A program made the translations under genes and the position numbers. A stretch of DNA of 64,000 nt from Tricholoma matsutake (taxonomy: Eukaryota > Basidiomycota > Agaricomycetes > Agaricales > Tricholomataceae). The stretch covers positions 7,192,001 through 7,256,000 of the forward strand of contig AP026541.1 of assembly GCA_026075535.2 (NCBI GenBank), given 5' to 3'. Below the pieces are notes generated by a model. That model was not told the origin of the DNA and did no database searches. It was given only the letters and a program-made list of their open reading frames with translations. This document shows positions 28,262 to 54,198 of the stretch, piece after piece. Every line of letters begins with the position of its first letter. Within the stretch, counting starts at the first letter, position 1.

Positions 28262-28949
28262 CTCTCTCATACTCCAAAAAAATGACCGGGGGGTGGGGTA
28301 AGCAAGGTACACAAGGTCACGGTAACAAAAATAACTTTATGTGTTTGCAAAAACACTGAGTCATAAGTGTGTTGACAATGCTGGTGTCGATGAGGGCAGG
28401 TAAGAATGAGGACAGGCAAAGGATGAGACAGGGCAAGGACAGGCAAGGACAAGGATGGGCATGGACGAGGCGGTGGACATGGCTGGTGACATGAACAGGG
28501 CTGGTGGTGTGAACGGGGCTGGTGCTGGTGGCATGGACAGTGCTGGTAACATGGACAGGGGGCAAGGAGGCATTGTCATAAGATGGGGTGGGGCAGGAAA
28601 TTCAGTCGTTGTCAAGAAGGGCGTCAACAATATGCTGTAGTGACATGTTGTGAATCTGGGCATACGACGGGGAGCTGGGGGATGAGCTGGGGATGACAGG
28701 GGTGTGTAGGATATATGGCCATCATTGATGAACACGTCAACGAGGATGTGGCATATCTGGTGGATGTGTGCGGCGTCGTGGCAGGCTTGTGGTGCATAAC
28801 AGGGGTCCAGCAGGGGGAACAGGGTGTTGTGGGAGGTGGTATGGGTCGTCATTGAAGATGGTGGGGCTGGCTGGGTGGATCTGTTGAGTCTGCGACACAT
28901 TCAGGTGAATGTGTACACATGACCTCGCATAACGGTGTTTTCTGGGCTG
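28262..28949. other. Internal region of element H, left segment
   Basis: About 690 bp without a recognisable gene. A G-rich, imperfectly repeated tract at 28430-28570 (variants of GCTGGTGNCATGGACAG) reads on the minus strand as Pro/Thr/His/Val-rich protein with an open frame at 28361-28900. That frame matches no family I recognise and may be a by-product of the repeat. The last five bases, GGCTG, are the duplicated target of element E. Confidence 0.5.
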
Positions 28950-29375
28950 TGTAAGGGGACTAGGGGGGTTCCCTGTGTGTTTTTCCTATTTTTTATGTTC
29001 GTCCCATATTTTTCCCCACCTCATTTCCTTCTATTCTTCATTTTCTATGATTTTTCCGGATTTTATTACTAATTTTCCCTTGCTATCATGTTTGTATATG
29101 TTGACACTTTTATATTTAGAGGCAGAGTACCCCTTCCGACACATACCCCTTGGTATGATGTCATTCGGCGGCCTTGATCCGCCTATCTCCGCCTTTTTCT
29201 ATTTTTAGGTTATATTTGATTTTTGTCGTCTTCACATATACTGGGCATCAGCAAGGGGATCCTTAGAGTTTTCTCTTCGGATTTCCCTTTGCTAGGTGCG
29301 CCCCCAATCCCTGTATTATGTAGCATAATTTTAACTTCGGATTTCCCTTTGCTAGAGGCTCAGGTTGCCCTTATA
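28950..29375 (+). repeat. 5' LTR of element E (426 bp)
   Basis: Same length and nearly the same sequence as 34571-34996 and the two LTRs of F. It ends in TA rather than CA in every copy. A 21-bp direct repeat (29275-29295 and 29335-29355, offset exactly 60 bp) lies near its 3' end and may be a regulatory or termination motif. Confidence 0.96.
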
Positions 29376-29541
29376 GTAGAAAACTCTCCCCTAAGGCCCG
29401 AAAATCGCGAACGCGCTGCCCAAAATAGGCAGGTACGGACTGGACGACGCTTCCCAAAGCTCCACAGAGTCCCTACACACCGTTCCAGATACTCTCGCCT
29501 TTATCACGCCGCTATTTTCGCCAAATGCGCTCCCTAGCGAC

Positions 29542-30660
29542 ATGGACGCATCAGAACACTTCGACGCGCTTGAAAGCAACGTTTCCGGAATGCGCGCGCA
29601 AATCGACTCACTTAAATCTACGATTGAAAACTTTGTTAGGACCCTCCAGGCTAACCCTATGACTAATAGTTCCCCCTTCACGACTCCAAGCACACCCAAC
29701 AACGACGTTTTGCCAAACGCGTCCACTAAGGAATGTGCCCAGATCAAACTGTCCCCCCCCGCCGAATTTAATGGTGCATGTGCGCAGGGACGTGCATTCC
29801 TTAATTCCTGTGAGTTATACATTAGTCTCCAGTTGCATCAATTCGTCGATGAGGCTGCAAAAATTTATTGGGCCTTCACATACATGAAATCTGAACGCGC
29901 CTATCTCTATGTGGACCGTATCCTACGTCAAACTAAAGAACTCGGTTCTCTACCTTTCTCCACTTGGGGTGACTTTCGAGCTGAGTTCATACGCCACTTC
30001 TGCCCCCTCAATGAATGCCACCGAGCAGTGACACGACTTGAGTCATCCACTTACCACCAGGGACGTCGATCCGTGGACGACTATATCGATGAGTTCAAGG
30101 ATTTGGTGGACATGGCAGGGTATGGGAGTGGGTTACCAGTGGTGGTGAAGTTCCGACGGGGGCTCAACCGAGAAATTCAGGACCAGATTGCACAGATGTT
30201 GGAAGGGCGCCCAGCGGACGATGATATCCTTGCTTGGTATGAAGCTGCTTCACTCTGTGATGAGAACCGACTCACAAATGCGGCGTTTAATGCTGCATTC
30301 CGTGCTCCAACTACCACTCATACACCCTACACCTTCAATCGAAGCCTCCCCCGCCCTAACCCCATTCCTGCTCGTCAAACTCCCACACCAGCCGTCAATG
30401 TCCCAGTACCAATGGATGTTGATGCAGCCCGCAGCCGTGCACGTAAGTTGGATCTCTGCTACCGTTGTGGGGAACCTGGACACAGGGCTGGAGCGTGTCC
30501 CCATCGTCAGGATATCTGCATGCTCACCCCTGAGGGATGAGACGAACTCCTGCAAGATTTGTTGGCACTTGTAGATGTTGAGGAAGCGAAGGATCAAGTT
30601 GCAGAGGAGGTTAAGCTGGAAGTTGTAGAGGAGCAGGATTTTCCTATTCGCAGCGAGTAA
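29542..30660 (+). pseudogene. gag of element E
   Basis: Gag with ATG at 29542. It has a coiled-coil-like N-terminus (FDALESNVSGMRAQIDSL), the Gag core (FNGACAQGRAFLNSCELYI, FSTWGDFRAEFIRHF), and the zinc knuckle CYRCGEPGHRAGAC. A TGA at 30538 truncates it; F has CGA there. Beyond it the frame stays open to the TAA at 30658. Otherwise it is nearly identical to F gag. Confidence 0.92.
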
Positions 30661-33600
30661 ATCGTACGCCCTCACTGCCTGTCCATAACCGCTTTGAAGT
30701 CTTGTCAGTTGAATCCCTGGAGAATGAATCCATTTCTGTGACTGCTCCCCTCTCTGACCCTTCGAAGTTGGCTAAAGACGTACCTGCTCTCCCCATCTCT
30801 CCTTCTACTCCACGTCCCAAAATTAAATCATGGGAGCATAAACTACCACGCAAGTATATTGTGGCATCCACTCCCTCTGCACATTCCTTAAACCTAGCCA
30901 TCGAACTGCAGACGACCGACACTGGACAGATACTCGGTGTCTCTGCGCTCCTGGACTCTGGTGCGACTGGTCTCTTCATCGATTCCCATCTGGTACAACA
31001 ACATCATCTAAATACTCGCTCACTCTCACGTCCGATACCTGTATATAACGTGGATGGATCCCCAAATGAAGCTGGTGCCATCCGAGAGGTTGCAGACCTG
31101 GTTCTCCATTACAAAGATCATAGTGAGCGTGCCCTTCTTGCTGTCACTCAATTAGGAAAGCAAAAGGCGATTTTGGGATATCCATGGCTTCGAGACCATA
31201 ACCCAGAGGTCGACTGGCGCACCGGGGAGGTTACCATGAGCCGATGTCCATCCCGCTGTCGGACGTGTTTCACAGAAGCCAGGCAAGAACGTCGTGGACA
31301 GAAGGCGGCAATACGACGAACTCAGAAGTGTCATGCTGGACCCCTGCCTATACCTGAAGTGGAATTGGAAGGGGTTCCTGATCTAATGCCAGACTCGGAT
31401 GATGATGATGAGGACCCAGAGGAAGTGGAGGAGGGTGATCGGATCTTCTACACTGCGATTCGCTCATCGCATGAGGTGTGTGCCACATCAAACATATCCC
31501 AATGCCTTGCCGAGGCCTTCCACAAAAACAACGCTGCTAAATCCTCTACTAACTCCTTACTCCCTCATCTCCATGAGTTTGAAGATGTGTTCTCCAAGGA
31601 GTCATTCGACTCTCTTCCTGCGCGTAAGCCATGGGATCACGCGATCGAACTCACCCCCGGCGCAACCCCTTCATCCTGCAAGGTCTATCCTCTCTCTCCA
31701 GAGGAACAACGGCAGCTTGACCAGTTCATCGACGAGCACCTGGCCTCTGGATGTATTTGACCATCGAAGTCACCCATGGCCTCTTCCTTTTTCTTTGTCA
31801 AGAAGAAGGATGGCTCACTTCGACCGGTTCAAGACTACAGAAGACTCAACAACATCACGGTCAAAAATCGCTACCCACTACCCCTCATCTCTGAACTCGT
31901 AAACCAGCTCCGTGGAGCCCGATACTTCACCAAGCTCGATGTCTGTTGGGGCTATAATAATGTGAGGATAAAGGAGGGAGATGAGTGGAAGGCAGCCTTT
32001 CGTACCAACCATGGTCTTTTTGAACCGCTTGTCATGTTCTTTGGCCTTACTAATAGCCCTGCCACCTTTCAGACCATGATGAACGACATCTTCCATGACC
32101 TCATCCTTGAAGGCGTTGTCTGCATCTATCTCGACGACATCCTCATCTTCACTCGCATGGTTGAAGAGCACCATCGCATCACACGCCTCGTCCTAGAGCG
32201 ACTTCGACGGTACAAACTCTACCTTCGTCAGGACAAATGCGAGTTCGAAAGGACCAAGATCGAGTACCTCGGCCTGATTATCTCGGAGGGTCAAGTGGAG
32301 ATGGATCCTATCAAGGTAAACGGGGTCACAGCTTGGCCGACACCCACAAACAAGAAGGAGGTGCAGTCTTTCCTGGGCTTCATCAATTTTTATCGGCATT
32401 TTATCAAGGATTTCTCACATCATGCATGACCGCTGTTCGACTTGACAGGAAAGGAGGCATGGAGGTGGGATAATGCACAACAGGAGGCATTCGAAAAGCT
32501 TAAGGAGATGGTCACTTCCGCTCCGATCCTTACCTTTGCTGACGATTCGCGTCCTTTTCGTGTAGAAGCCGACAGTTCTGACTTTGCGATGGGCGCTGTG
32601 TTGTCTCAGCACTCTCCGGAGGACCAGAAGTGGCATCCTGTTGCGTTCTACTCCAAAAGCCTTAGTGCTGTAGAGAGAAACTACGAGATCCATGACAAGG
32701 AGATGTTGGCAATAATGCATGCGCTTGAGGAGTGGCGACACTTCCTCGAGGGTGCCCAACACAAGGTGGAAATTTGGACGGATCACAAGAACCTCGAGTA
32801 CTTCATGACGGCCAAGAAATTGAACCGTCGTCAAGCTCGTTGGTCCCTGTATCTATCTAGATTTGACTTCTCCTTGCACCACCGTCCGGGTCGCAGCATG
32901 GGGAAGACCAATGCCCTATCCCGACGTGCAGACCATGGGGATGGCAGCGGTGACAACCAAAACATTGTGCTGTTGCAGCCAGACCTGTTCACCATTTGGG
33001 CACTGGAAGGCATCGCACCCCAGGGCGAGGAGTGGGACATTCTACGTGACATTCGTTGCGCAAACCGTAGTGGTTTACATGAGGATGTTGTCGCCCGAGC
33101 TGTTAAAGAACTGAGGAAGGGATCGACCCTTTCCTTACGTGCGGCAGAGTGGGCTGAAAAGGAGGACTTGTTGTATTTCAGGGATCGCATCTATGTTCCC
33201 AATGACCCAGACCTTCGCCAGTGCATCATATCCCAACACCATGACTCACAGATTGCTGGCCACCCCGGACGCTGGAAGACCTTGGAGCTCACCTCACGGA
33301 ACTATTGGTGGCCACAAATGTCACGGCTCATTGGTCAGTATTGTCGCACTTGTGACCTTTGCTTACGCACCAAGGTCCCTCGTCGCAAGCCTATTGGTGA
33401 GCTACACCCTCTTCCTGTTCCAGAGAGTTGTTGGGATGTCGTCAGCGTTGACTTTGTGGTGGAATTGCCAGAGTCAAACGGGTTTGATGCGGTGATGTGC
33501 ACAGTTGACTCAGTGGGAAAACGCGCTCACTTCATTCCCACTCACACCACTGTCAGTGCCCTAGGTGCCGCTCGACTCTACCTCCACCACGTGTGGAAAT

Positions 33601-34559
33601 TACATGGACTTCCTGGTGCCTTCCTCTCGGATCGTGGCCCTCAGTTCATGGCAGAGTTCACTCGTGAGCTGTACTGACTCCTGGGGATCAAACTCCTCGC
33701 TTCAACTGCTTATCACCCACAAACTGATGGCCAGACGGAGCGAGTCAACCAGGAACTGGAGCAGTACATCCGCCTCTTTGTCAATGAACGCCAGGACGAT
33801 TGGGATGATCTCCTTCCTTTGGCTGAGTTTGGGTACAACAACCATGTCCATGCTTCCACTCAACAGACCCCTTTCCTCTTAGACACTGGACGACATCCAC
33901 GCATGGGATTTGAACCTCGCCAAACTCCCTCACACATCGAGACAGTGAATGAGTTCACAGAATGCATGAGGGATAGCTTGGAGGAGGCAAGGGCAGCCTT
34001 AGCAAAGGCGAAGGATGACATGGCGCGATTTTACAACCAGCGCCACTCCCCAACCCCTCAGTACAAGGTTGGTGATCGAGTTTATCTCGACTCCAGTGAC
34101 ATCTCCACTACACGTCCATCCAAGAAACTCGCTCATCGCTTCTTGGGACCTTTCCCCATTGTCAAGTGCGTTGGAACACATGCCTATCGTCTACGCCTCC
34201 CAGCCTCCATGTCCAGACTCCATCCCATCTTCCATGTCGTCAAATTGCTTCCAGCTCCCCCAGATCCGTTCCTGGGATGCCATTCACACCCACCACCACC
34301 ACCTACAGTGATTGAGGGAGAACCCCAATATGAAGTCGAGTCAATCTTGGACAGCCGTTTGCGTTGAGGAAAACTCCAGTATTTGGTACATTGGAAGGGT
34401 TATGGGTATGAGGAGAACTCATGGGTCGAAGAGTCTGACGTAAATGCCCCTCGGTTAATCAAGGAATTCCACCGACGGCACACTGCTGCACCGCGTCGCA
34501 TTCAAGTCACAGACTTTGGTCGTATACGATTTCGAATGCATCGGGGCGATGCATCTTAG
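30615..34559 (+). pseudogene. pol of element E: protease, RT, RNase H, integrase, chromodomain
   Basis: The pol frame overlaps the gag end by about 45 nt in the -1 frame. Retropepsin (ALLDSGATGLFID) is at about 30950; RT ([30 protein letters not shown]) at about 31790-32250; RNase H (VEADSSDFAMGAVLS) at about 32560; integrase (RTCDLCLRTK, SVDFVVELP, AYHPQTDGQTERVNQ) at about 33340-33760; and a chromodomain (YLVHWKGYGYEENSWV) at about 34380-34430. TGA codons at 31758, 32427 and 33675 break it and are CGA in the sister copy. The TGA at 34365 before the chromodomain is shared with F. Non-functional. Confidence 0.95.
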
Positions 34560-34570
34560 AGAGGGGGTGA

Positions 34571-34996
34571 TGTAAGGGGACTAGGGGGGTGCCCTGTGTG
34601 TTTTTCCTATTTTTTATGTTCGTCCCATATTTTTCCCCACCTCATTTCCTTCTATTCTTCATTTTCTATGATTTTTCCGGATTTTATTACTAATTTTCCC
34701 TTGCTATCATGTTTGTATATGTTGACACTTTTATATTTAGAGGCAGAGTACCCCTTCCGACACATACCCCTTGGTATGATGTCATTCGGTGGCCTTGATC
34801 CGCCTATCTCCGCCTTTTTCTATTTTTAGGTTATATTTGATTTTTGTCGTCTTCACATATACTGGGCATCAGCAAGGGGATCCTTAGAGTTTTCTCTTCG
34901 GATTTCCCTTTGCTAGGTGTGCCCCCAATCCCTGTATTATGTAGCATAATTTTAACTTTGGATTTCCCTTTGCTAGAGGCTCAGGTTGCCCTTATA
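34571..34996 (+). repeat. 3' LTR of element E (426 bp)
   Basis: Partner of 28950-29375, differing at about four positions, three of them C to T at CpG. Followed by the target duplication GGCTG. Confidence 0.96.
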
Positions 34997-35001
34997 GGCT
35001 G

Positions 35002-35847
35002 TGGATGGTCTTGGTGTGTCATTTACGGCGTGGTGGTGAGTCTCCTGTATAGAGAATGCTTCCTGGGTGCGACATGTGGCCCTAGATGCCGTTTCCATGG
35101 TAGTTGTCATTGCTGGTGGTGACGTGGCTGTGGACTGGGGTCGTTCCAGATGCGGGGCTGGGGAGTGTGCTGGGGAGGTGGACATGGAGTGAGGGGTGTA
35201 GATGGCATCATCGGAGATGCCGGAGGCATGTACCAGGCAGGTTCTGGCGAAACGGCATGCATCTGGGGGGTTTGGGGCAAGCCAAGTGGATGGGGCAGGC
35301 CCTTGGGGTGCTCTCGTGGGTTTGTGCAGGTCGATGGCAAAAAATGGGGGTTGGGGGTGTGTAGAAAGGCCATGTTGGCAAAAAATGGGTCTCGGGTGTG
35401 AGGGGAAGGTCTCGAGGTGATGTCAAAGGAATTGAGGGGAGTTCAAGAGTAGGTTAGAGGCAGAGAGTGGGGGTGATGGTGGACATTGTACAAAGTGGGA
35501 TCTGGACAAGCATAGGGTGGTTCTGGGCCAGATTCACAGTTATAAAGGGAATTTGACGACGAGGCATGTCTGGTGGACATGTGGGGCATTGTGCCGGGCT
35601 CAGTCCGCACAATGTGGGTCTGTGGGGTGAGCTGGGGAGAGTACAGGGGTGTGGGAGGTCTCATGGTTCATCGTTGGGAGCAATGGTGCCAGTGGAGTTC
35701 ATCCATAGAGCAGCAGACGCGTTATGATGAGCATGTCCACGCGTACTCACCTCACATCATTTTCTGGACTGTAAACAGTGTTGGTTCATCATCAGTCCCC
35801 TGTATGAGGGGTGCTTCCCAGGTGTCAGACACAGTTACAGTCGTCGT
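35002..35847. other. Internal region of element H, middle segment
   Basis: Purine/GT-rich sequence between elements E and G. The minus strand reads as Pro/His/Thr-rich with stops and no family match. No gene is supported. It ends with GTCGT, the duplicated target of element G. Confidence 0.5.
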
Positions 35848-35857
35848 TGTTAAACAG

Positions 35858-35861
35858 AAAA
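35858..35861 (-). terminator. Pol III T-run terminator after the tRNA-like unit
   Basis: TTTT on the minus strand, 3 nt past the acceptor end and about 10 nt before the LTR end. The same run is present in the other LTR at 36152-36155. Four T's is a minimal fungal Pol III terminator. Confidence 0.55.
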
Positions 35862-35864
35862 GAT

Positions 35865-35937
35865 GACCAGACTGGGGATTGAACCCAGGCCCTCCTGGAC
35901 ATATACCAGATGCTCTGACCAACTGAGCTATCAGGTC
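35865..35937 (-). tRNA. tRNA-like Pol III gene in the 3' LTR of element G (probably not a functional tRNA)
   Basis: A 73-nt cloverleaf. The acceptor stem GACCTGA/TCTGGTC has one mismatch. The D arm is GCTC..GAGC with a perfect A box (TAGCTCAGTTGG). The anticodon stem is TCTGG/CCAGG, and the T arm CTGGG/CCCAG includes a good B box (GGTTCAATCC). The 7-nt anticodon loop would give anticodon TAT (Ile), but the near-universal T33 is A, which argues against decoding. A TTTT terminator follows at 35861-35858. Confidence 0.7.
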
Positions 35938-36071
35938 TTATAGGGTTCAACAGAACAAGGATACCATATAACCAGACACAGATTGCTACAACTATCACAC
36001 CACTTGTGTGTGTGTGCAAACTATGGTCTGTTAAGCACTGATTAAGCAGTGACAGATTATATAATCCAACA

Positions 36072-36141
36072 CACCCCCTTAATCTGGCACATCTAAATCT
36101 GCTTAGGTAATCTGGCTGACAAAGCGCCAGGGCCCATAACC
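36072..36141 (-). other. Internal domain of element G: primer-binding site and polypurine tract
   Basis: Only 70 bp. The primer-binding site (GGTTATGGGCCCTGGCGC, minus strand, 36141-36124) touches the 5' LTR. The purine tract AAGGGGGTG (36080-36072) touches the 3' LTR. There is no coding capacity, so mobility would depend on proteins from another element. The primer match to initiator tRNA is from memory of its conserved anticodon arm. Confidence 0.8.
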
Positions 36142-36365
36142 TGTTAAACAGAAAAGATGACCAGACTGGGGATTGAACCCAGGCCCTCCTGGACATATAC
36201 CAGATGCTCTGACCAACTGAGCTATCAGGTCTTATAGGGTTCAACAGAACAAGGATACCATATAACCAGACATGGATTGCTACAACTATCACATCACTTG
36301 TGTGTGTGTGCAAACTATGGTCTGTTAAGCACTGATTAAGCAGTGACAGATTATATAATCCAACA
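36142..36365 (-). repeat. 5' LTR of element G (224 bp)
   Basis: Same length as the partner LTR, about 98-99% identical by eye. On the minus strand it starts TGTTGGATTATATAATC and ends TTTAACA. Confidence 0.92.
36159..36231 (-). tRNA. tRNA-like Pol III gene in the 5' LTR of element G
   Basis: Second copy of the 73-nt cloverleaf at the same offset in the other LTR, with the same A box, B box and anticodon loop and a TTTT run just downstream. Because both copies lie in LTRs, they are copied together during each round of retrotransposition. Confidence 0.7.
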
Positions 36366-36871
36366 GTCGTTTCCAGGGTGGTTGCAGCAGTGTTTGTCAC
36401 CATTGTTGACTGCAAAATGGCAGCATAACAGCAGGGTTCAGGGCATGAGAGGAGGGACTGGGGAGGTAGCTGGGTGCTGTGGGTTGAGCTGGAAGTGAGT
36501 TCTGTCAGTTCTGAGCAGTTGGACGTGCTGGAAAACCAGTCGCATCATGGATATCGACAACATTGATGCCATTGACAACCGTGACATGGTGTGTGATGGT
36601 GGTGATGAAAGGGCCAGTAATGCATGGTTGTAGATTGTAGTAGGCTAGGTATCGTTCAAGTCATCAGGGGAAGCAGAGTGAGATGGGGGAAAGTGAGTGG
36701 GCAGTGAGCGAGCAGGTAGTCCGGCATTGTCAAAGTACAGTGTTGGCTAGTGTTGGTGTGAAAAAAAAAAAAAAAGACTGTTCTGGTAATTTCAGGGTCA
36801 GCGGGGTTTCGGGGAAAAGAGCATGTGAGAGAGAATAGAGTGTTGATAGTAAGCTCATTATTTAAAAAAAG
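36366..36871. other. Internal region of element H, right segment
   Basis: About 500 bp, GT-rich, with a run of A residues at about 36760-36775 and another just before the right LTR. I see no gene. Confidence 0.5.
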
Positions 36872-37395: not shown

Positions 37396-37400
37396 CCAAC

Positions 37401-37826
37401 TATAAGGGCAACCTAAGCCTCTAGCAAAGGGAAATCCGAAGTTAAAATTATACTACATAATACAGGCATTGGGGGCGCACCTAGCAAAGGGAAATCCGAA
37501 GAGAAAACTCTAAGGATCCCCTTGCCGATGCCCAGTATATGTGAAGACGACAAAAATCAAATATAACCTAAAAATAGAAAAAGGCGGAGATAGGCGGATC
37601 AAGGCCGCCGAATGACATCATACCAAGGGGTATGTGTCGGAAGGGGTACTCCGCCTCTAAATATAAAAGTGTCAACATATACAAACATGATAGCAAGGGG
37701 AAATTAGTAATAAAATCCGGAAAAATCATAGAAAATGAAGAATAGAAGGAAATGAGGTGGGGAAAAATATGGGACGAACATAAAAAATAGGAAAAACACA
37801 CAGGGCACCCCCCTAGTCCCCTTACA
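37401..37826 (-). repeat. 3' LTR of element F (426 bp)
   Basis: On the plus strand it starts TATAAGGGC and ends CCCCTTACA. Preceded by the target duplication CCAAC. Contains the same 21-bp direct repeat spaced by 60 bp as element E. Confidence 0.96.
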
Positions 37827-37839
37827 TCACCCCCTCTCT

Positions 37840-38029
37840 AAGATGCATCGCCCCGATGCATTCAAAATCGTATACGACCAAAGTCCGTGACTTGAATGCG
37901 ACGCGGTGCAGCAGTGTGCCGTCGGTGGAATTCCTTGATTAACCGAGGGGCATTTACGTCAGACTCTTCGACCCATGAGTTCTCCTCATACCCATAACCC
38001 TTCCAATGTACCAAATACTGGAGTTTTCC
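37840..38029 (-). pseudogene. Chromodomain tail of element F pol, separated by TGA
   Basis: Directly after the TGA the frame continues with a chromodomain (YLVHWKGYGYEENSWVEES), then a basic tail. It contains another TGA near 37857-37865 that is CGA in E. The first TGA is present in both E and F, so it predates at least one of the insertions. Whether it is read through is unknown. Confidence 0.8.
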
Positions 38030-41000
38030 TCAACGCAAACGGCTGTCCAAGATTGACTCGACTTCATATTGGGGTTCTCCCTCAATCACTGTAGGTGGTG
38101 GTGGTGGGTGTGAATGGCATCCCAGGAACGGATCTGGGGGAGCTGGAAGCAATTTGACGACATGGAAGATGGGATGGAGTCTGGACATGGAGGCTGGGAG
38201 GCGTAGACGATAGGCATGTGTTCCAACGCACTTGACAATGGGGAAAGGTCCCAAGAAGCGATGAGTGAGTTTCTTGGATGGACGTGTAGTGGAGATGTCA
38301 CTGGAGTCAAGATAAACTCGATCACCAACCTTGTACTGAGGGGTTGGGGAGTGGCGCTGGTTGTAAAATCGCGCCATGTCGTCCTTCGCCTTTGCTAAGG
38401 CTGCCCTTGCCTCCTCCAAGCTATCCCTCATGCATTCTGTGAACTCATTCACTGTCTCGATGTGTGAGGGAGTTTGGCGAGGTTCAAATCCCATGCGTGG
38501 ATGTCGTCCAGTGTCTAAGAGGAAAGGGGTCTGTTGAGTGGAAGCATGGACATGGTTGTTGTACCCAAACTCGGCCAAAGGAAGGAGATCATCCCAATCG
38601 TCCTGGCGTTCATTGACAAAGAGGCGGATGTACTGCTCCAGTTCCTGGTTGACTCGCTCTGTCTGGCCATCAGTTTGTGGGTGATAAGCAGTTGAAGCGA
38701 GGAGTTTGATCCCCAGGAGTCGGTACAGCTCACGAGTGAACTCTGCCATGAACTGAGGGCCACGATCCGAGAGGAAGGCACCAGGAAGTCCATGTAACTT
38801 CCACACGTGGTGGAGGTAGAGTCGAGCGGCACCTAGGGCACTGACAGTGGTGTGAGTGGGAATGAAGTGAGCGCGTTTTCCCACTGAGTCAACTGTGCAC
38901 ATCACCGCATCAAACCCGTTTGACTCTGGCAATTCCACCACAAAGTCGACGCTGACGACATCCCAACAACTCTCTGGAACAGGAAGAGGGTGTAGCTCAC
39001 CAATAGGCTTGCGACGAGGGACCTTGGTGCGTAAGCAAAGGTCACAAGTGCGACAATACTGACCAATGAGCCGTGACATTTGTGGCCACCAATAGTTCCG
39101 TGAGGTGAGCTCCAAGGTCTTCCAGCGTCCGGGGTGGCCAGCAATCTGTGAGTCATGGTGTTGGGATATGATGCGCCGGCGAAGGTCTGGGTCATTGGGA
39201 ACATAGATGCGATCCCTGAAATACAACAAGTCCTCCTTTTCAGCCCACTCTGCCGCACGTAAGGAAAGGGTCGATCCCTTCCTCAGTTCCTTAACAGCTC
39301 GGGCGACAACATCCTCATGTAAACCGCTACGGTTTGCGCAACGAATGTCACGTAGAATGTCCCGCTCCTCGCCCTGGGGTACGATGCCTTCCAGTGCCCG
39401 AATGGTGAACAGGTCTGGCTGCAACAGCACAATGTTTTGGTTGTCGCCGCTGCCATCCCCATGGTCTGCACGTCGGGATAGGGCATCGGTCTTCCCCATG
39501 CTGCGACCCGGACGGTGGTGCAAGGAGAAGTCGAATCTAGATAGATACAGGGACCAACGAGCTTGACGACGGTTCAATTTCTTGGCCGTCATGAAGTACT
39601 CGAGGTTCTTGTGATCTGTCCAAATTTCCACCTTGTGTTGGGCACCCTCGAGGAAGTGTCGCCACTCCTCAAGCGCACGCATTATCGCCAACATCTCCTT
39701 GTCATGGATCTCGTAGTTTCTCTCTACAGCACTAAGGCTTTTGGAGTAGAACGCAACAGGATGCCACTTCTGGTCCTCCGGAGACTGCTGAGACAACACA
39801 GCGCCCGTCGCAAAGTCAGAACTGTCGGCTTCTACACGAAAAGGACGCGAATCGTCAGCAAAGGTAAGGATCGGAGCGGAAGTGACCATCTCCTTAAGCT
39901 TTTCGAACGCCTCCTGTTGTGCATTATCCCACCTCCATGCCTCCTTTCCTGTCAAGTCGAACAGCGGTCGTGCATGATGTGAGAAATCCTTGATAAAACG
40001 CCGATAAAAATTGATGAAGCCCAGGAAAGACTGCACCTCCTTCTTGTTCGTGGGCGTAGGCCAAGCTGTGACCCCATTTACCTTGATAGGATCCATCTCC
40101 ACTTGACCCTCCGAGATAATCAGGCTGAGGTACTCGATCTTGGTCCTTTCGAACTCGCATTTGTCCTGACGAAGGTAGAGTTTGTACCGTCGAAGTCGCT
40201 CTAGGACGAGGCGCGTGATGCGACGGTGCTCTTCAACCGTGCGAGTGAAGATGAGGATGTCGTCGAGATAGATGCAGACAACGCCTTCGAGGATGAGGTC
40301 ATGGAAGATGTCGTTCATCATGGTCTGAAAGGTGGCAGGGCTATTAGTAAGGCCAAAGAACATGACAAGCGGTTCAAAAAGACCATGGTTGGTACGAAAG
40401 GCTGCCTTCCACTCATCTCCCTCCTTTATCCTCACGTTATTATAGCCCCAACGGACATCGAGCTTGGTGAAGTATCGGGCTCCACGGAGCTGGTTTACGA
40501 GTTCGGAGATGAGGGGTAGCGGGTAGCGATTTTTGACCGTGATGTTGTTGAGTCTTCTGTAGTCTTGAACTGGTCGAAGTGAGCCATCCTTCTTCTTGAC
40601 AAAGAAAAAGGGAGAGGCCATGGGTGACTTCGATGGTCGAATACGTCCAGAGGCCAGGTGCTCGTCGATGAACTGGTCAAGCTGCCGTTGTTCCTCCAGA
40701 GAGAGAGGATAGACCTTGCAGGATGAAGGGGTTGCGCCGGGGGTGAGTTCAATCACGTGATCCCATGGCTTACGCGCAGGAAGAGAGTCGAATGACTCCT
40801 TGGAGAACACGTCTTCAAACTCATGGAGATGAGGGAGTAAGGAGTTAGTAGGGGATTTAGCAGCATTGTTTTTGTGGAAGGCCTCGGCGAGGCGTTGGGA
40901 TATGTTCGATGTGGCACACACCTCATGCGATGAGCGAATTGCAGTGTAGAAGATCCGATCACCCTCCTCCACTTCCTCTGGGTCCTCATCATCATCATCC

Positions 41001-41783
41001 GAGTCCGGCATTAGATCAGGAACCCCTTCCAATTCTACTTCAGGTATAGGCAGGGGTCCAGCACGACACTTCTGAGTTCGTCGTATTGCCGCCTTCTGTC
41101 CACGACGTTCTTGCCTGGCTTCTGTGAAACACGTCCGACAGCGGGATGGACATCGGCTCATGGTAACCTCCCCGGTGCACCAGTCGACCTCTGGGTTATG
41201 GTCTCGAAGCCATGGATATCCCAAAATCGCCTTTTGCTTTCCTAATTGAGTGACAGCAAAAAGGGCACGCTCACTATGATCTTTGTAACGGAGAACCAGG
41301 TCTGCAACCTCTCGGATGGCACCAGCTTCATTTGGGGATCCATCCACGTTATATACAGGTATCGGACGTGAGAGTGAGCGAGTATTTAGACGATGTTGTT
41401 GTACCAGATGGGAATCGATGAAGAGACCAGTCGCACCAGAGTCCAGGAGCGCAGAGATACCGAGTATCTGTCCAGTGTCGGTCGTCTGCAGTTCGATGGC
41501 TAGGTTTAAGGAATGTGCAGAGGGAGTGGATGCCACAATATACTTGCATGGTAGTTTACGCTCCCATGATTTAATTTTGGGACGTGGAGTAGAAGGAGAG
41601 ATGGGGAGAGCAGGTACGTCTTTAGCCAACTTCGAAGGGTCAGAGAGGGGAGCAGTCACAGAAATGGATTCATTCTCCAGGGATTCAACTGACAAGACTT
41701 CAAAGCGGTTATGGACAGGCAGTGAGGGCGTACAATTCACTCGCTGCGAATAGGAAAATCCTGCTCCTCTACAACTTCCAGCT
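38030..41783 (-). CDS. Pol polyprotein of element F: protease, RT, RNase H, integrase
   Basis: An uninterrupted frame overlapping gag by about 45 nt in the -1 frame, with no ATG near its start, so it is probably made as a Gag-Pol fusion by frameshifting or a similar event. Retropepsin has ALLDSGATGLFID. RT has [18 protein letters not shown] and the catalytic VCIYLDDILIFT. RNase H starts at VEADSSDFATGAVLS, with ERNYEIHDKEMLAI and WTDHKNLEYF. Integrase has the zinc-binding end RTCDLCLRTK, core SVDFVVELP, and AYHPQTDGQTERVNQELEQY, followed by a GPY/F module (HRFLGPFPIVK). A TGA at 38030 ends it just before the chromodomain. Confidence 0.94.
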
Positions 41784-42855
41784 TAACCTCCTCTGCAACT
41801 TGATCCTTCGCTTCCTCAACATCTACAAGTGCCAACAGATCTTGCAGGAGTTCGTCTCGTCCCTCGGGGGTGAGCATGCGGATATCCTGACGATGGGGAC
41901 ACACTCCAGCCCTGTGTCCAGGTTCCCCACAACGGTAGCAGAGATCCAACTTACGTGCATGGCTGCGGGCTGCATCAACATCCATTGGTACTGGGACATT
42001 GACGGCTGGTGTGGGAGTTTGACGAGCAGGAATGGGGTTAGGGCGGGGGAGGCTTCGATTGAAGGTGTAGGGTGTATGAGTGGTAGTTGGAGCACGGAAT
42101 GCAGCATTAAACGCCGCATTTGTGAGTCGGTTCTCGTCACAGAGTGAAGCAGCTTCATACCAAGCAAGGATATCATCGTCTGCTGGGCGCCCTTCCAACA
42201 TCTGTGCAATCTGGTCCTGAATTTCTCGGTTGAGTCCCCGTCGGAACTTCACCACCACTGGTAACCCACTCCCATACCCTGCCATGTCCACCAAATCCTT
42301 GAACTCATCGATATAGTCGTCCACGGATCGACGTCCCTGGTGGTAAGTGGATGACTCAAGTCGTGTCACTGCTCGGTGGCGTTCATTGAGGGGGCAGAAG
42401 TGGCGTACGAACTCAGCTCGAAAGTCACCCCAAGTGGAGAAAGGTAGAGAACCGAGTTCTTTAGTTTGACGTAGGATACGGTCCACATAGAGATAGGCGC
42501 GTTCAGATTTCATGTATGTGAAGGCCCAATAAATTTTTGCAGCCTCATCGACGAATTGATGCAACTGGAGACTAATGTATAACTCACAGGAATTAAGGAA
42601 TGCACGTCCCTGCACACGTGCACCATTAAATTCGGCGGGGGGGGACGGTTTGATCTGGGCACGTTCCTTAGTGGACGCGTTTGGCAAAACATCGTTGTTG
42701 GGTGCGCTTGGAGTCGTGAAGGGGGAACTATTAGTTGTAGGGTTAGCCTGGAGGGTCCTAACGAAGTTTTCAATCGTAGATTTAAGCGAGTCGATTTGCG
42801 CGCGCATTCCGGAAACGTCGCTTTCAAGCGCGTCGAAGCGTTCTGATGCGTCCAT
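41737..42855 (-). CDS. Gag polyprotein of element F
   Basis: Structural protein of the element, expected to form the cytoplasmic virus-like particle. The first ATG is at 42855 and gives 372 residues; the frame is open further upstream without an ATG. A helical N-terminus (FDALESDVSGMRAQIDSLK) is followed by the Gag core (FNGARVQGRAFLNSCELYI, WGDFRAEFVRHFCPLNERHR). The zinc knuckle CYRCGEPGHRAGVC lies near residues 305-318. It ends at a TGA at 41737-41739, which lies inside the overlap with pol. No frame breaks are seen, in contrast to E. Confidence 0.93.
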   Translation of the reverse strand: MDASERFDALESDVSGMRAQIDSLKSTIENFVRTLQANPTTNSSPFTTPSAPNNDVLPNASTKERAQIKPSPPAEFNGARVQGRAFLNSCELYISLQLHQFVDEAAKIYWAFTYMKSERAYLYVDRILRQTKELGSLPFSTWGDFRAEFVRHFCPLNERHRAVTRLESSTYHQGRRSVDDYIDEFKDLVDMAGYGSGLPVVVKFRRGLNREIQDQIAQMLEGRPADDDILAWYEAASLCDENRLTNAAFNAAFRAPTTTHTPYTFNRSLPRPNPIPARQTPTPAVNVPVPMDVDAARSHARKLDLCYRCGEPGHRAGVCPHRQDIRMLTPEGRDELLQDLLALVDVEEAKDQVAEEVKLEVVEEQDFPIRSE

Positions 42856-43021
42856 GTCGCTAGGGAGCGCGTTTGGCGAAAATGGCGGCGCAATAAAGGC
42901 GAGAGTATCTGGAATGGTGTGTAGGGACTCTGTGGAGCTTTGGGAAGCGTCGTCCAGTCCGTACCTGCCTATTTTGGGCAGCACGTTCGCGATTTTCGGG
43001 CCTTAGGGGAGAGTTTTCTAC

Positions 43022-43447
43022 TATAAGGGCAACCTAAGCCTCTAGCAAAGGGAAATCCGAAGTTAAAATTATACTACATAATACAGGCATTGGGGGCGCA
43101 CCTAGCAAAGGGAAATCCGAAGAGAAAACTCTAAGGATCCCCTTGCCGATGCCCAGTATATGTGAAGACGACAAAAATCAAATATAACCTAAAAATAGAA
43201 AAAGGCGGAGATAGGCGGATCAAGGCCGCCGAATGACATCATACCAAGGGGTATGTGTCGGAAGGGGTACTCTGCCTCTAAATATAAAAGTGTCAACATA
43301 TACAAACATGATAGCAAGGGAAAATTAGTAATAAAATCCGGAAAAATCATAGAAAATGAAGAATAGAAGGAAATGAGGTGGGGAAAAATATGGGACGAAC
43401 ATAAAAAATAGGAAAAACACACAGGGCACCCCCTTAGTCCCTTTACA
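43022..43447 (-). repeat. 5' LTR of element F (426 bp)
   Basis: Partner of 37401-37826, ending CCTTTACA and followed by CCAAC. It is the promoter end of the element and faces away from SRC1. Confidence 0.96.
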
Positions 43448-43808
43448 CCAACACTGCTGGCACATGGTAGCATATGTAAAGGTATTTCCCCTAGGTGATA
43501 TTCTCGCGTCTTCAGCAATGATTTCCCTAACTCAACACGTCCTCCCATGCTGACCTTGTCAGTTGTCGGAGTTGACCGGAGCTTCGGGCTCAAGCGTTCC
43601 ACCAAAAAAAAATATATATATATATTATTTTAGTCGCATGCACGTGAATCACGTGATAATCTGAGTCGTGTTGAACATGCGAAACTCCGAGTCTTGACTG
43701 ATTCAACAAAGCTTTACAACAACTCAAGCTGTCAGAAATCTTCCTCCAGCTATTCCTCGCTTGCACCCTCGATCTATATCTTCATCTATAGCGCGTTAGC
43801 CTTTGTAA
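43448..43808. promoter_or_regulatory. Upstream region of SRC1 (host sequence)
   Basis: About 360 bp between element F and the SRC1 start codon. It contains an A run followed by a TA dinucleotide tract (about 43603-43628) and a CACGTGA motif near 43642. No gene is seen. The SRC1 promoter must lie here or extend into the F LTR. Confidence 0.5.
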
Positions 43809-47195: not shown

Positions 47196-49121
47196 TCAAG
47201 ACCAATCATCAGATCCCATCGACCAGCCCATAGGTATCCCCGCCTGAATCTTCTCAATCAGGGCTCGTTTCATGAACTGTTCCTCTGCTAAAAGCCGCGT
47301 GCTCTAGAAGACAAAAAGTTCACCCTTTGCTTGGACATTAGCAATGGGGTGAAAAAAAAACACACCCTCAAAAACCGTTCGAGATCTATTCTCCCGGCGC
47401 TCAGCGCCCGGTGCAAATGGTAAATGGTGTCTTCGATTGCGTTGTCTTCAGCAACGAGGGTGACAAGTCTATTAATGGTCTTTGAGGGTGAGGAACAAAC
47501 AAAAGAAAGACCCCTTACTGGTTGTGGACGATGGTTGTGGAACAAACGAGCTCGTCAACTTCTGGATCCCCTTTACGACGAAGTTCTGCTATATTTGTCT
47601 CTGCCTGGTCAACCAGGCCTTTCATTCTGCCAGCTACAGTGCTGCACACCATACGTACTGCCTCCAACCGTGACATCTCGTCGCGGATAGCAGGTTCTCC
47701 ATTAAGGAGATCCGTCTGGTGAGCACGTAACCGTTCAGCATCTGTTGCTAGGGTTTCTGAAAGAGAGCTAAACTCTGACATCAATTTATGATAGACTTCA
47801 GCATGGAGGTGGAGTGTCTCTGGATTCGGAGGGCGTGGAGGTGGCGCTGTGGACGGGTTCTGCGGAGGAACAGAGGGCGTTTCCGGAGAATCCTCGTCAA
47901 GAAGGTTGGGATAAACGGAAGGTCGCTCAGAAGCAATTGCCTCTTGTTGCCGACTTCGCATCGAGAGTTCTGAACGATATAACGGCGAGCTCGACAAACC
48001 CACTTGCGAGGAGGGAAAGAATGCAGCACCAGCTGGAGAGCTAGTTGAGATCGATGCTTGCAAACGAGCAGCGCCATCGACATCTGCTGGAGAAAAACGT
48101 GGTACAGAGACATGACCGGCGAACGTATCGTTGTTATCGGAATGTGATAGGGCGACAGGAGGCTTGACATACGAGCTTCTGTATTGCGGGGGTCCAACAC
48201 CCGATGTAGTGCGAGGTGGAGGTGGTCTTGGGGGAGGGGGTGGCGGAGGGGAGGATCCAAGAGCTGTAACCTGTTTAGCAAGAATGTCATGTTAATATCA
48301 AGATGATATGGTTTAATACCTACATCAGAAGACTGTGGAGTCGGAGACCGAATGTCGACTGACGGAAGATAATCGGGCAACATCGGTTTTGGAGGGATTG
48401 CGGGGCGATCTGAAATTGATACGGATGAAGAAGCTACAGGTTGTGAGGACATGGGTGGTAAAGGCGCAGGTGGCGAGGGTGCCCCAGTGGGCACAGAGGA
48501 ACCTGGTAGAGGGGGAGGAGGTTTTCCTCGATAATCTCGAGAGAGAGGTGGTTGAATCGCTGTGCCACTTGGGGGCTTGGCATACACAGGAGGTTCCCGC
48601 GAGAATTGCTCTTGCATGGCCTCCAGCAACGCTGACAAGTTACATGCCTACAGAAGGAATAAGTCACATCCCAGAAGCAGACGAAATAGATAGATGCCTC
48701 ATTCTTGCGCGCCCAATGTTGTATGTATTGAATATTGCATCTGCCACTGACATCGATATATTTACCGGCCTTTATGAGCATACCACTGGTAGGGATGACA
48801 AAAGGAATGGGAGGATCTCGAGGATACTCTCTTGTCAACCAGATAGCAATTGGGATGTTATACGAAGCATTACGAAAAGAGATTGGAAGTAAGCCGTGAA
48901 TGCAAAGGAGTAGCTGAGAGCGGCCGTCATCATATACTGTATAAGAGATATCAGATAAGTTTAAGATTAAGTATAAATATGACGACTGAACTGTAAACGT
49001 CTGACTTTGGGCGCAAGGTAGAGAAGCGAGCGAGAGCAGCTTCGACATCGATATAAACGCGTTCTTTCTGCGAATACAATTGTATGTTTTGTCGCAGCCA
49101 TCTCTGTGTCAATGAACTCAT
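47196..49121 (-). CDS. VPS23: ESCRT-I subunit Vps23/TSG101 (UEV domain, steadiness box)
   Basis: Recognises ubiquitinated cargo and sorts it into multivesicular endosomes as part of ESCRT-I. Six exons give 551 residues. The N-terminal UEV domain (ubiquitin E2 variant without the catalytic cysteine) includes VYDDGRSQLLLCIHG, YNIPIAIWLTREYP and IPFVIPTSGMLI. A long Pro/Ser-rich linker (PPPPPPPRPPPP) follows, then a coiled coil (LHAEVYHKLMSEFSSLSETL). The C-terminal steadiness box (LVAEDNAIEDTIYHLHRALSAGRIDLERFLR..LLAEEQFMKRALIEKI) anchors it to ESCRT-I partners. One intron (48648-48697) uses GC-AG ends. The start ATG at 49121 is the only one in frame with the UEV start. It is divergent from the TEA gene. 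Confidence 0.92.
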
Positions 49122-51442: not shown

Positions 51443-54198
51443 TTATGTGCGGGAGAATAACAGCTTTCCTGCCTCCTCTCTGACCTTAGCATGCCAGTGC
51501 GCTTTATGCAAAGCATGGAGTTCCCAGAACGAGGTCCCAAATGGGTGAGAGAGCTGTGGATCATCTACATCAGGTCGATAGATACCATCAAATACACGGT
51601 CTTCTGTATGTAAGAGTGCTTCCAGCTTCAGATCTTTGGCGATCAGCCTGCGAACGAAGTCGATCGCGCGAAGTGCTGTTGCTGGTGGCCAATGCAAGGA
51701 TGCGTTCAGCAATCGCTTGGCAAAAGCAGCGGAGCGCCATGACGGCCCGACATTCCCAGCAGTGCGAGGGGAGAAAACGATGTCCAGTGCACGGAACAAC
51801 ATGTCCGCCACGGAATGAACATGTCCTGACTGTATTTCAGCGATGTCGTCCATGAAGCTCAGTGGCAGGATGATAGCGTGTAAGCTGGATATGAAATCGG
51901 TTAGATCGATATTCAAGGCTTCTCCTATAGTCATCAGTTGAGCAATTATAATCAACAACAGCGGGACCAATGCACCTTGGCCCGATAATAATTCAAACGC
52001 GGTGACAATGCACGACAGACGATGACGTATGGCTTTAATGTCATTTGATAGTTCATCCGTTGGATGGCTCGTATGATGCGCTTGCGAAATGAGATCCTTT
52101 AGAACCTGCATGAGGTCTTCGAAGAAATCGATGTTAACAAGATGTGCAAATTTTGAAATGCCGTTCAACACTGCTGGAAGTAACGGAGTGGGGCGTGAAT
52201 TCTTCAATATACGGAAATACAGGGCAAACAGGAGTTTCAGTGTCTCGGTGTGCTGAGGGGAAAATATATTAAGTACCGAGAGACGGAAAGAAACTTGGCT
52301 TACTGTAACTGCTCGTTCTTCTTTGTCAATTTCGGCCTCTGTTTCACGAAATTCCTTCGCTATCTCCTTTTTCTCTTTCAGAGTTTTTTTCATCTTTTTG
52401 GTGAGGTGAGGCTCATCAGTCGTCTTTCCTTTCGCCCGTTTAGAAGCTGCTCTGCCACTTGACATCATTTTTGCCGAAGTATTCCGGTCACTCTTCGAGT
52501 GGGAAGCCCGCACTCCAAGTTCTGTCTTTAGTCGCAGATGGAGAAGGCACGAAAGGACCTGTGGGTGAACATTGAATCGTCGCTCCTTTATCATACGATT
52601 TAGTAATCGGACAATATCCAAGGAGACTGTTCCAGTAAGATCTTCGTCGAAAGCTTTGATGAGAGTTTTGAGGCAGAGATCCGAGGTCTAGCAAGAAATC
52701 ACTTGTATTTATTGATACAAGCAGGTGAACTATGTCATACCTGATTCCACGACCTTTGACTCAATCGAGCAACGATACAAGTCATGAGGTTGACTCTAAA
52801 ATTGAAGTGAGGAACTTCACTTAGCAACGTACACATGCATTGGAGCGCCACGACGGCCAAGTCGGTGTGATCTTTGCTTTCTCATTTCAGATTTTATGAA
52901 ACGCAGAAATTTTGGAAACTAATCACCTTTGATTTCTGCCTCCAATAATCGCAAATAGGTCTGATATATACCTACCAAACCTTGTTCCCAATCTCTGGTG
53001 CGCGCCACCATCTGACTAACTTTTTCTGCCTTCTCCTTGTCGGTGAGGGGACGAATCTTATATCCTGGAATGATATCCTTAAACACTGCAAGTTGGGAGA
53101 TAATAGCCAGCCTTCTGATATGTGGATCGATTATTACAGGATCAGGATGAGTTGGAGTTTGAATTTCCTTCATGGAGAAGGAGTAGAGACGTTTTAGGAG
53201 GCCAAGCTAAAGCTGCTGCGTAAACAGACCACTTTGATGCATTACATCCAACTTACATTATTCTCAGGGTCTGATATTATTTCTTGACAAATTCCAGCAA
53301 TTTGTTCCTTCGCACTCTGGATTCGTTCCTTTTTAGACTGTGTTCCGACAATATCCACAACAGCCGCTCGTCCGAACCTGGCCCCAGTAGAGACATCCTC
53401 GACGAGTGTCGTTTCTGGAGGACCATCTGCTTCTGACTGCTGCTCCTCTTCTTCATCAGAATATTCATCTGTTAGGGTTGAGAAGTGTACACCAGTTTGG
53501 CGAATACGTCCATCAGCAAGCTTTATCGGCAGCTTCTTAATAGCAGGTTTGTCTTCAGAATCCCACGAATGATGGCGTATTCGTGGGGTCATCTCATAAG
53601 GCATCTCATCGTCTGTGTCTGGGTGATAGAGAAAAGATTGGGAATCTTGGTCGGAAAAGACATCTTCTGCGTCTGAAGTGCCAAATGAATCCTTTTCCAT
53701 GTCTGAGTTCCATGAATCTTTATCCTCGTCATGAGAGTCAACAGAAGGCAGGTCATCATGGGCAAATACCCGATTTTTCGGCTGATTGAGACGATGTAAT
53801 CGTTCTGTTTCCATCTTACTCCTATGGTTGCGTTGTGTTTAGAATAAAGAGTGGATCGTGTCAGAGCTCATACCTGGCTATTCCCTTGTAGTCTAAGGTG
53901 TCCAAAAAGGATGCAGACCCAAGGATTTCCAAGTCTTGTTCCGACAAATCGATGTCCTCATCCTCGTCTTTATCAATTAGGGGGATTGGAATTGTATCTC
54001 TGTTAGTAGGCTGCTTCTTTGTTTTTCCTCTGTGGTTTGCTTTCGATTTGACCGAAGTCTGTGACGTAGGCTGATTCGCAGCAAGTTTGCGTTTTTTCGA
54101 GGGACCCTGACCAACAACTAAGCAAAAAAAGACAAGAAAGAGACAAACTTTAATACCGCAAAGGGAGGGGCTGGCCTTTTACTGTTCTGTTTCGCCAT
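51443..54198 (-). CDS. NOC3: Nucleolar complex-associated protein 3 (Noc3)
   Basis: Works with Noc2 in the nucleus to mature and export pre-60S ribosomes; in yeast it is also linked to replication licensing. Seven exons give about 817 residues. The N-terminus is basic (GPSKKRKLAANQ), followed by an acidic stretch (IDKDEDEDIDLSEQDLEILG) and the Noc3 N-terminal domain around LGLLKRLYSFS to LAVFKDIIPGYKIRPLTDKEKAEKVS. A Lys/Glu-rich coiled coil (KKMKKTLKEKKEIAKEFRETEAEID) follows. The C-terminal CBF/Mak21-like helical repeat includes LPLSFMDDIAEIQ and the closing DDPQLSHPFGTSFWELHALHKAHWH motif typical of the family. One intron (52253-52303) is a multiple of three and could be read through in frame, but its ends and the break in homology support splicing. 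Confidence 0.9.

Follow-up and report, generated by a model that had tools for sequence, protein, structure and literature searches.

Which autonomous element moves the TRIMs that carry a small-RNA gene in their LTRs? This question, which fused insertions can address directly, is raised by a 518-bp element of the fungus Tricholoma matsutake. It lies in a stretch of 64,000 nucleotides of contig AP026541.1 (assembly GCA_026075535.2), called here the window, and had been singled out as a TRIM with a tRNA-like gene in each LTR. On the basis of the analysis presented below, this element is probably, at a chance of about three in four, a non-autonomous Helenus-type TRIM (TRIMp3) in which a decayed tRNA gene of the LTR would supply an internal Pol III promoter, and which would be mobilised by Copia retrotransposons through the cycle proposed in the last section.

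Structure and dispersal of the element

The element is composed of two direct repeats of 224 bp, identical at 221 positions and different at three, on either side of a 70-bp interior; it is devoid of coding sequence (Table 1). Both LTRs start with TG and end with CA, and an exact GTCGT duplication stands on either flank. The sense strand is the minus strand, on which the order is LTR (TGTTGG...TTTAACA), GGTTATGGGCCC, a short interior, ATTAAGGGGGTG and the second LTR, the primer site and the polypurine tract each touching an LTR. The repeats, the interior, the duplication and the two adjoining signals had all been described in this way by the original prediction. Its TRIM reading holds as far as the anatomy is concerned, with the sense strand corrected to minus.

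Table 1. Features of the TRIM, in window positions
Feature	Position	Strand	Basis
Target-site duplication GTCGT, left	35843..35847		5/5 match (locus L003)
Target-site duplication GTCGT, right	36366..36370		5/5 match
5' LTR, 224 bp, TGTTGG...TTTAACA	36142..36365	-	Direct-repeat comparison, 5-bp duplication
3' LTR, 224 bp	35848..36071	-	3 mismatches with the 5' LTR
Interior, 70 bp, non-coding	36072..36141	-	40 genome matches, 39/39 candidates scored
Primer-binding site GGTTATGGGCCC, half-tRNA initiator-Met anticodon-loop type, adjoins 5' LTR	36130..36141	-	Sequence
Polypurine tract ATTAAGGGGGTG, adjoins 3' LTR	36072..36083	-	Sequence
tRNA-Ile(TAT)-like part, 5' LTR (LTR 135-208); A33, T5/T68 unpaired	36158..36231	-	ARAGORN, Rfam
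tRNA-Ile(TAT)-like part, 3' LTR	35864..35937	-	ARAGORN, Rfam
A box TAGCTCAGTTGG	36213..36224 (5' LTR); identical at 35919-35930	-	Sequence
B box GGTTCAATCC	36170..36179 (5' LTR); identical at 35876-35885	-	Sequence
TTTT, candidate weak Pol III terminator	36152..36155 (5' LTR); identical at 35858-35861	-	No other run of at least 4 T in the LTR

The TRIM is itself flanked by an inverted pair of Gypsy elements (window positions 28949-34997 on the plus strand and 37400-43448 on the minus strand), 98.1% identical over 6049 bp, a size near the 6047 bp reported for marY1 in the available text of PMC10211490. An open frame of 1250 aa in one of these two copies encodes domains of RT, RNase H and integrase. 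Host genes in the vicinity encode a UEV domain (48434-49108, minus strand), a member of the CBF/Mak21 family (51443-52687, minus strand) and a CLASP_N-like protein (60583-61899, plus strand).

The T. matsutake genome (161,040,721 bases in 13 contigs) was searched with both parts of the element. The LTR gave at least 55 matches from the 40 candidates, out of 250, that were scored, and the interior gave 40 matches in 38 loci (all 39 candidates scored, loci counted by hand). Every one of the 72 TRIM loci sampled for this family, hereafter family 1, has a TRIM LTR or a piece of it. The sample contains 81 full-length LTRs, distributed between 12 complete elements, the one in the window included, and 57 single LTRs. 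Exact 5-bp duplications surround 11 of the 12 complete elements, the twelfth matching at 4 of 5 positions, and 38 of the 57 single LTRs, the single LTRs giving 0.76 on average, and never more than 5, when the right flanks were shuffled. According to a reading of the table of loci, 15 of the single LTRs are parts of incomplete or inverted elements, with a polypurine tract or a primer site adjoining; the solo LTRs left after their removal number 42, among which 38 have exact duplications. Two loci with common flanks (L039 and L047) were counted as one event. Dispersed copies with independent 5-bp duplications, by which the original prediction was to be judged, are present in the proportions just given. 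The element of the window is a well-formed, repeatedly mobile LTR element of T. matsutake.

Three main subfamilies can be distinguished by their LTRs: one of 224 bp with a TTTAACA end, one of about 230 bp, and one of 227-228 bp ending mostly in CATTCCTACA or CATTCCTAACA. Three complete elements (L007, L063 and L079), each surrounded by an exact duplication, combine LTRs of two subfamilies. Gene conversion or recombination is likely in these cases, since one round of reverse transcription should yield like LTRs, and the mixture suggests exchange between copies. Two further arrangements were observed. At L061 (718-1186), two TRIM LTRs stand head to head, separated by no more than 9 bp of the polypurine tract; the two outer ends are of the U5 type and the duplication GTGCT is exact. 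At L087 (1044-1783), one TRIM LTR has been inserted into that of a second TRIM and is flanked by a separate duplication, ATACC.

Primer site, Copia families and fused insertions

The primer site of the TRIM belongs to a type that is presumably comparable to the half-tRNA priming of Drosophila copia. The sequence AACAGGTTATGGGCCC, with at most one mismatch, occurs at 993 places in the genome as against 1 for the control. The first 30 of these loci were assigned to LTR family I (23 loci), to LTR family II (5 loci) or to neither (2 loci), and at none of the 30 was a tRNA called or a direct repeat found across the primer site, within reach. PF14223, a gag of the copia type, is matched by frames of both families, which also possess the primer site of the TRIM. 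Primer sites of the half-tRNA type abound in the T. matsutake genome, 28 of the 30 examined falling in these two families with a copia-type gag. A search for the initiator-Met tRNA gene of T. matsutake with an intron-free pattern gave 0 matches; nothing is deduced from this search because the pattern allows no intron, and an intron would defeat it.

Two additional families are of particular relevance here. Copia III is represented by 4 genomic copies with LTRs of 348 or 349 bp followed by GGTTATGGGCC, and its LTR matches are paired about 5.1 kb apart. In Copia X, GGTTATGGGCC stands directly after the 5' LTR in both copies examined, and RVT_2 is found upstream of the LTR in one locus (L138, E 1.5e-41). 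The Copia X LTR (236 bp, taken from L100) is matched to its end by five listed copies elsewhere; in most listed copies the match stops at position 212 and the last part is displaced, and pairs are about 5 kb apart. Between Copia III and X, 157 of 195 residues of the RT pieces are the same, compared with 37% and 33% over 86 for a piece of Copia IV. The 11-nt primer site is all that the interior of the TRIM has in common with those of Copia III and X, and the LTRs are unlike beyond the first bases. No Copia with more of the 70-bp interior was recognised in the interior search or in a search for the polypurine junction. The latter found 36 places (2 in the control), the majority of which have the TRIM family's own junction. 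A match to the interior start with three mismatches (L127, C11:8862500-8865000) revealed no Copia-like frame when its forward frames were inspected by eye.

Fusions between TRIM and Copia sequences were found in two of the 72 TRIM loci. The first, L052 (C2:6781011-6783648), is bounded on either side by CATTC. It reads as a TRIM LTR, the interior, LTR positions 1 to about 23, the antisense interior from position 62 to 13, a T-rich tract of 22 nt and about 1.9 kb of antisense Copia, followed by LTR positions 184-224, the interior and an LTR; LTR positions 24-183 are missing. The Copia part, of family III, contains RVT_2 (E 1.9e-44). It departs from the genomic LTR after CAGGATTATTAA and continues as an A-rich tail where the genomic copies read on, as expected for a polyadenylated Copia mRNA. 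The antisense interior ends exactly at the start of the 12-nt primer site.

The second fusion, L100 on contig C12, is delimited by an exact GAGTT duplication and combines the 236-bp Copia X LTR, the TRIM interior, LTR positions 1-81 and the same stretch inverted. The foreign LTR joins the TRIM interior at the very base where the primer site begins. The right outer end of this insertion (L100:819-1301) is an inverted U3 end, and short GATA repeats occupy the centre of the fold-back; two ends of the U3 type were apparently accepted by an integrase. The host site is an apparent Gypsy frame, as judged by eye against the Gypsy of the window, in which RVT_1 was detected at E 9.6e-05, below the cut-off.

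With confidence and doubt in equal measure, both insertions can be read as fossils of reverse transcription that took place in particles of a single Copia clade. Synthesis of the TRIM strand in L052 would have halted at the 12 nt covered by the primer and resumed on the poly(A) of a Copia III mRNA, of which 1.9 kb would then have been copied. At L100, the common primer site would be the point at which the TRIM interior was joined to an LTR of Copia X. A Pol III transcript lacking poly(A) and the mRNA of a Pol II retrotransposon would have been present in the same particles, and the mobiliser of a TRIMp3 element would thus be identified without LTR similarity.

A different history, in which the fusions do not come from common particles, would make L052 a tandem TRIM that later received a LINE-type insertion of a Copia mRNA copy, and L100 the product of a later rearrangement. 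Tandem TRIM arrays are known in plants, according to the available literature, and nested insertions are present in T. matsutake. Indeed, L094, a candidate for a third fusion, was ruled out as a Copia IV (RVT_2) nested in a TRIM interior; its own duplication, CTTCT, makes it a contrast to the two fusions. Such later events are nevertheless unlikely, if by no means negligible. In L052, the A-rich tail meets an antisense interior that ends exactly behind the 12-nt primer site, a large part of an LTR is lost, and no 6-nt word is common to the 50-nt stretches around the two Copia ends, the right-hand joint being placed only approximately. In L100, the joint coincides with the first base of the primer site and the outer GAGTT is exact. 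Taken together, the fusions and the common 11-nt primer site point to the clade of Copia III and X as the candidate mobiliser. Arguments against this reading are the unlike LTRs of the TRIM and of these two families, and the presence of the primer site in families I and II as well. A fused insertion is proof that two templates met and not of the family of the enzyme, and two cases only are available.

The tRNA-like part and a second family

ARAGORN calls one tRNA-Ile(TAT) in each LTR of the window's element, and each tRNA-like part scores 56.3 bits with the Rfam tRNA model RF00005, for which the cut-off is 29. The tRNA-like part covers 74 nt (LTR 135-208) and is followed by TCTTTTCTG. The A-box consensus TRGCY/YGG is represented by TAGCT and TGG, and the B-box GGTTC by GGTTC itself. 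These boxes had been anticipated, as had the TTTT end, which is located exactly at LTR 211-214 and is the only run of four or more T in the LTR. The expectation of a 73-nt cloverleaf was borne out in part: a tRNA is recognised by ARAGORN and by the covariance model of Rfam, but its length is 74 nt and the minimum-energy fold of this part alone is not a cloverleaf, with a stability no better than that of shuffles (z -0.20). The cloverleaf is therefore a fit of the tRNA covariance model. The anticodon loop, TATATGT, has A at position 33, in agreement with the predicted absence of T33; U is near-universal at this position of tRNAs. In addition, T5 stands opposite T68 and is unpaired.

A chance origin of the module is excluded, because a 32-nt piece of its core, with at most 3 mismatches, is found at exactly 2 places in the window and at none in 100 shuffles, and the 55-nt core, at the same tolerance, at 192 places genome-wide against 0 for the reversed control. 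The A box was found in 79 and the B box in 75 of the 80 other LTRs, and tRNA-Ile(TAT) was called by ARAGORN in 78 of the 81, in a set biased towards intact cores because many loci were picked from an intact-core list (the first 100, all with 0 mismatches). As for the terminator, the tails of ten tRNA genes taken as ordinary show a run of at least 5 T within 45 nt in 8 cases and TTTT only in 2, both Ile-AAT. The candidate terminator of the element sits, by its sequence, in the weak (TTTT) class, as do these two real tRNA genes. The idea that it is weak is little supported, because the two tRNA-Ile(AAT) genes likewise have TTTT only within 45 nt.

Six tRNA-Ile(TAT)-like places obtained by an Rfam search have flanks that differ from family 1. 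The core pattern of this second family occurs at 14 places in the genome and at 0 in the control. The two cores, with 192 and 14 matching places for families 1 and 2, constitute a warning for annotation in T. matsutake. In L128, a complete element of the second family, the LTRs measure 266 and 259 bp, start with TGTTGGATGAGG and end with TTTAATA; the interior has GGTTATGGGCCCTG at its start and GATTGGGGGAGTG at its end, and the duplication is AATGG. Its tRNA-like part has the same placement in the LTR as in family 1. When the 5' LTR of L128 is compared with the 5' LTR of the window, 68 of 73 positions are identical in the tRNA part and 66 of 133 in U3, with 40 gap columns; for the 3' LTR of L128, the corresponding values are 66/73 and 64/127, with 45 gap columns. 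A33 and the unpaired T5/T68 are common to both families. This second T. matsutake family, with a common tRNA module and little common U3, is new. The likeness of the module across families would reflect either constraint or exchange between them.

A fairer set for the study of conservation consists of 24 of the 38 interior-found loci, with 36 full-length LTRs and the subfamily positions included. In this set, substitutions within family 1 amount to 17/2574 (0.66%) in the tRNA part and 79/4684 (1.69%) in U3, with a Fisher p of 0.00015 obtained by treating sites as independent though many changes are shared by descent. The tRNA call of ARAGORN is kept in 34 of the 36 LTRs, and the retention of the tRNA-like part, on which the original prediction had also been made to depend, is thus observed. 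When the 80 other LTRs are compared with that of the window and 12 subfamily-diagnostic positions are omitted, the rates per 100 sites are 0.49 for the tRNA part, 0.68 for U3, 0.10 for the A box and 0.92 for the B box, which is no better kept than U3. An argument for selection within family 1 drawn from all 81 LTRs was dropped, on account of the intact-core bias and of a difference that nearly disappears without the subfamily positions. Constraint on the tRNA part within the young family 1 appears weakly supported.

Ordinary TRIMs use Pol II. The U3 of the window's TRIM contains the TATA-like motifs TATATAAT and GGTTATATGG, from which Pol II could transcribe the element, the tRNA-like part being a mere passenger left by an old insertion and devoid of promoter role. 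The modest conservation of the B box without the subfamily positions would suit such a passenger, and Cassandra is termed an exception among TRIMs in its use of Pol III in the literature available. This reading is improbable when set against the preservation of the tRNA part between families whose U3 aligns poorly, a pattern that recombination could also yield, and against its lower rate of substitution relative to U3 in the interior-found set of family 1. A role of the tRNA-like RNA in transcription appears likely, and we infer that the TRIM may be transcribed by Pol III from its internal A and B boxes. A spread by retrotransposon of functional tRNA-Ile(TAT) genes that widen the decoding repertoire is highly improbable, for although the ARAGORN calls in the set biased to intact cores, the Rfam score and, in the available text, the annotation of the same type at high copy in T. 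bakamatsutake would suit it, A33 and the unpaired T5/T68 recur in both families, the isolated RNA adopts no cloverleaf at minimum energy, and ARAGORN calls a distinct, intron-bearing tRNA-Ile(TAT) gene at L117. The sequence features common to both families agree with the absence of a decoding role.

Proposed cycle and comparison with known systems

In the cycle proposed for the Helenus-type TRIM, Pol III would bind at the two promoter boxes, A and B, in the 5' LTR, with a start near LTR position 130. Most transcripts would end at the weak TTTT directly behind the tRNA-like part, with a length of about 80 nt; the presence of this TTTT in the 5' LTR implies that the genomic RNA needs read-through. 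A minority would continue through the primer site, the interior and the 3' U3, and stop at the TTTT of the 3' LTR. The resulting RNA of about 380 nt would begin and end with the tRNA-like segment, which would serve as R. This RNA would be packaged in Copia particles, for which the two fused insertions point to the clade of Copia III and X as supplier, and the 5' half of initiator tRNA-Met would act as primer at GGTTATGGGCCC. The second strand would be completed from the polypurine tract, and the Copia integrase would insert the product with a 5-bp duplication. Read-through, the identity of the primer and packaging are steps that we infer from the signals of the element.

The original prediction had seen in this element a separate and new counterpart of Cassandra, tRNA-like and in a fungus. 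This claim is not supported, and the idea of a new kind of element was rejected: the Helenus TRIMs named by Kojima 2024 (PMC10886601), Agaricomycetes included, cover the window's TRIM as far as the available text of that paper goes. There, Helenus, Ajax and Cassandra constitute TRIMp3. Like the TRIM of the window, Helenus has a tRNA-like LTR with A and B boxes, no coding sequence, 5-bp duplications in fungi, a primer site of the anticodon-loop type, solo LTRs and an inflating effect on tRNA gene counts; it is as a rule shorter than 1000 bp, compared with 518 bp here. The features by which Helenus is recognised, namely the size, the A and B boxes, the 5-bp duplications and an interior bounded by a primer site and a polypurine tract, are all present in the window's TRIM. 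According to the same available text, the anticodon-loop half of initiator tRNA-Met is the dominant primer type of fungal Helenus, and the case for mobilisation by Copia was built on the likeness of primer sites, the length of the duplications and a single similarity in the interior, seen between elements from two species of rust. In that text, Pol III transcription is unproven for Helenus, and a mobilising family is not indicated for Cassandra. Tricholoma does not occur in its main text.

No report of this TRIM in Tricholoma was found in the open-licence literature, and neither a tRNA count nor a TRIM was found in the available text of the T. matsutake genome papers PMC10211490 and PMC6980582. 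In T. bakamatsutake, 275 of 277 tRNA-Ile genes have a TAT anticodon, more than expected and unexplained in the available text of PMC10627285; a TRIM LTR of this kind plausibly explains these 275 genes. The second family, the fused insertions and this explanation of the tRNA surplus of T. bakamatsutake are the new elements added here.

The Cassandra elements of plants resemble the window's TRIM in having a small-RNA gene with a Pol III promoter in the LTR and a methionine primer site (PMC10853983, available text). Cassandra carries 5S rRNA in its LTR, in plants, whereas the window's TRIM carries a tRNA-like part, in a fungus; no 5S rRNA was found in the LTRs of the window, where Rfam at the gathering score gave only two tRNA matches. 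The tRNA-derived SINEs (SINE2) also combine a tRNA-derived internal Pol III promoter with a short mobile element. SINE2 elements have a tail and target-primed insertion, in contrast to the two LTRs, the primer site, the polypurine tract and the 5-bp duplications of the TRIM.

The fusions find their closest parallel in the compound insertions of grasses described by Sabot and Schulman 2007 (PMC1950507), which have outer 5-bp duplications and were read, in the available text, as template switching between packaged RNAs. The grass complexes bring together similar elements (Angela-like, Squiq, Opie), whereas those of T. matsutake bring together a TRIM and a Copia without common LTRs. Insertions in which a TRIM is fused to a Copia do not figure in the available text of the Helenus paper (PMC10886601) and so add evidence of another kind, and the search within one genome for compound insertions with outer duplications provides an approach by which the mobiliser of a TRIM can be sought.
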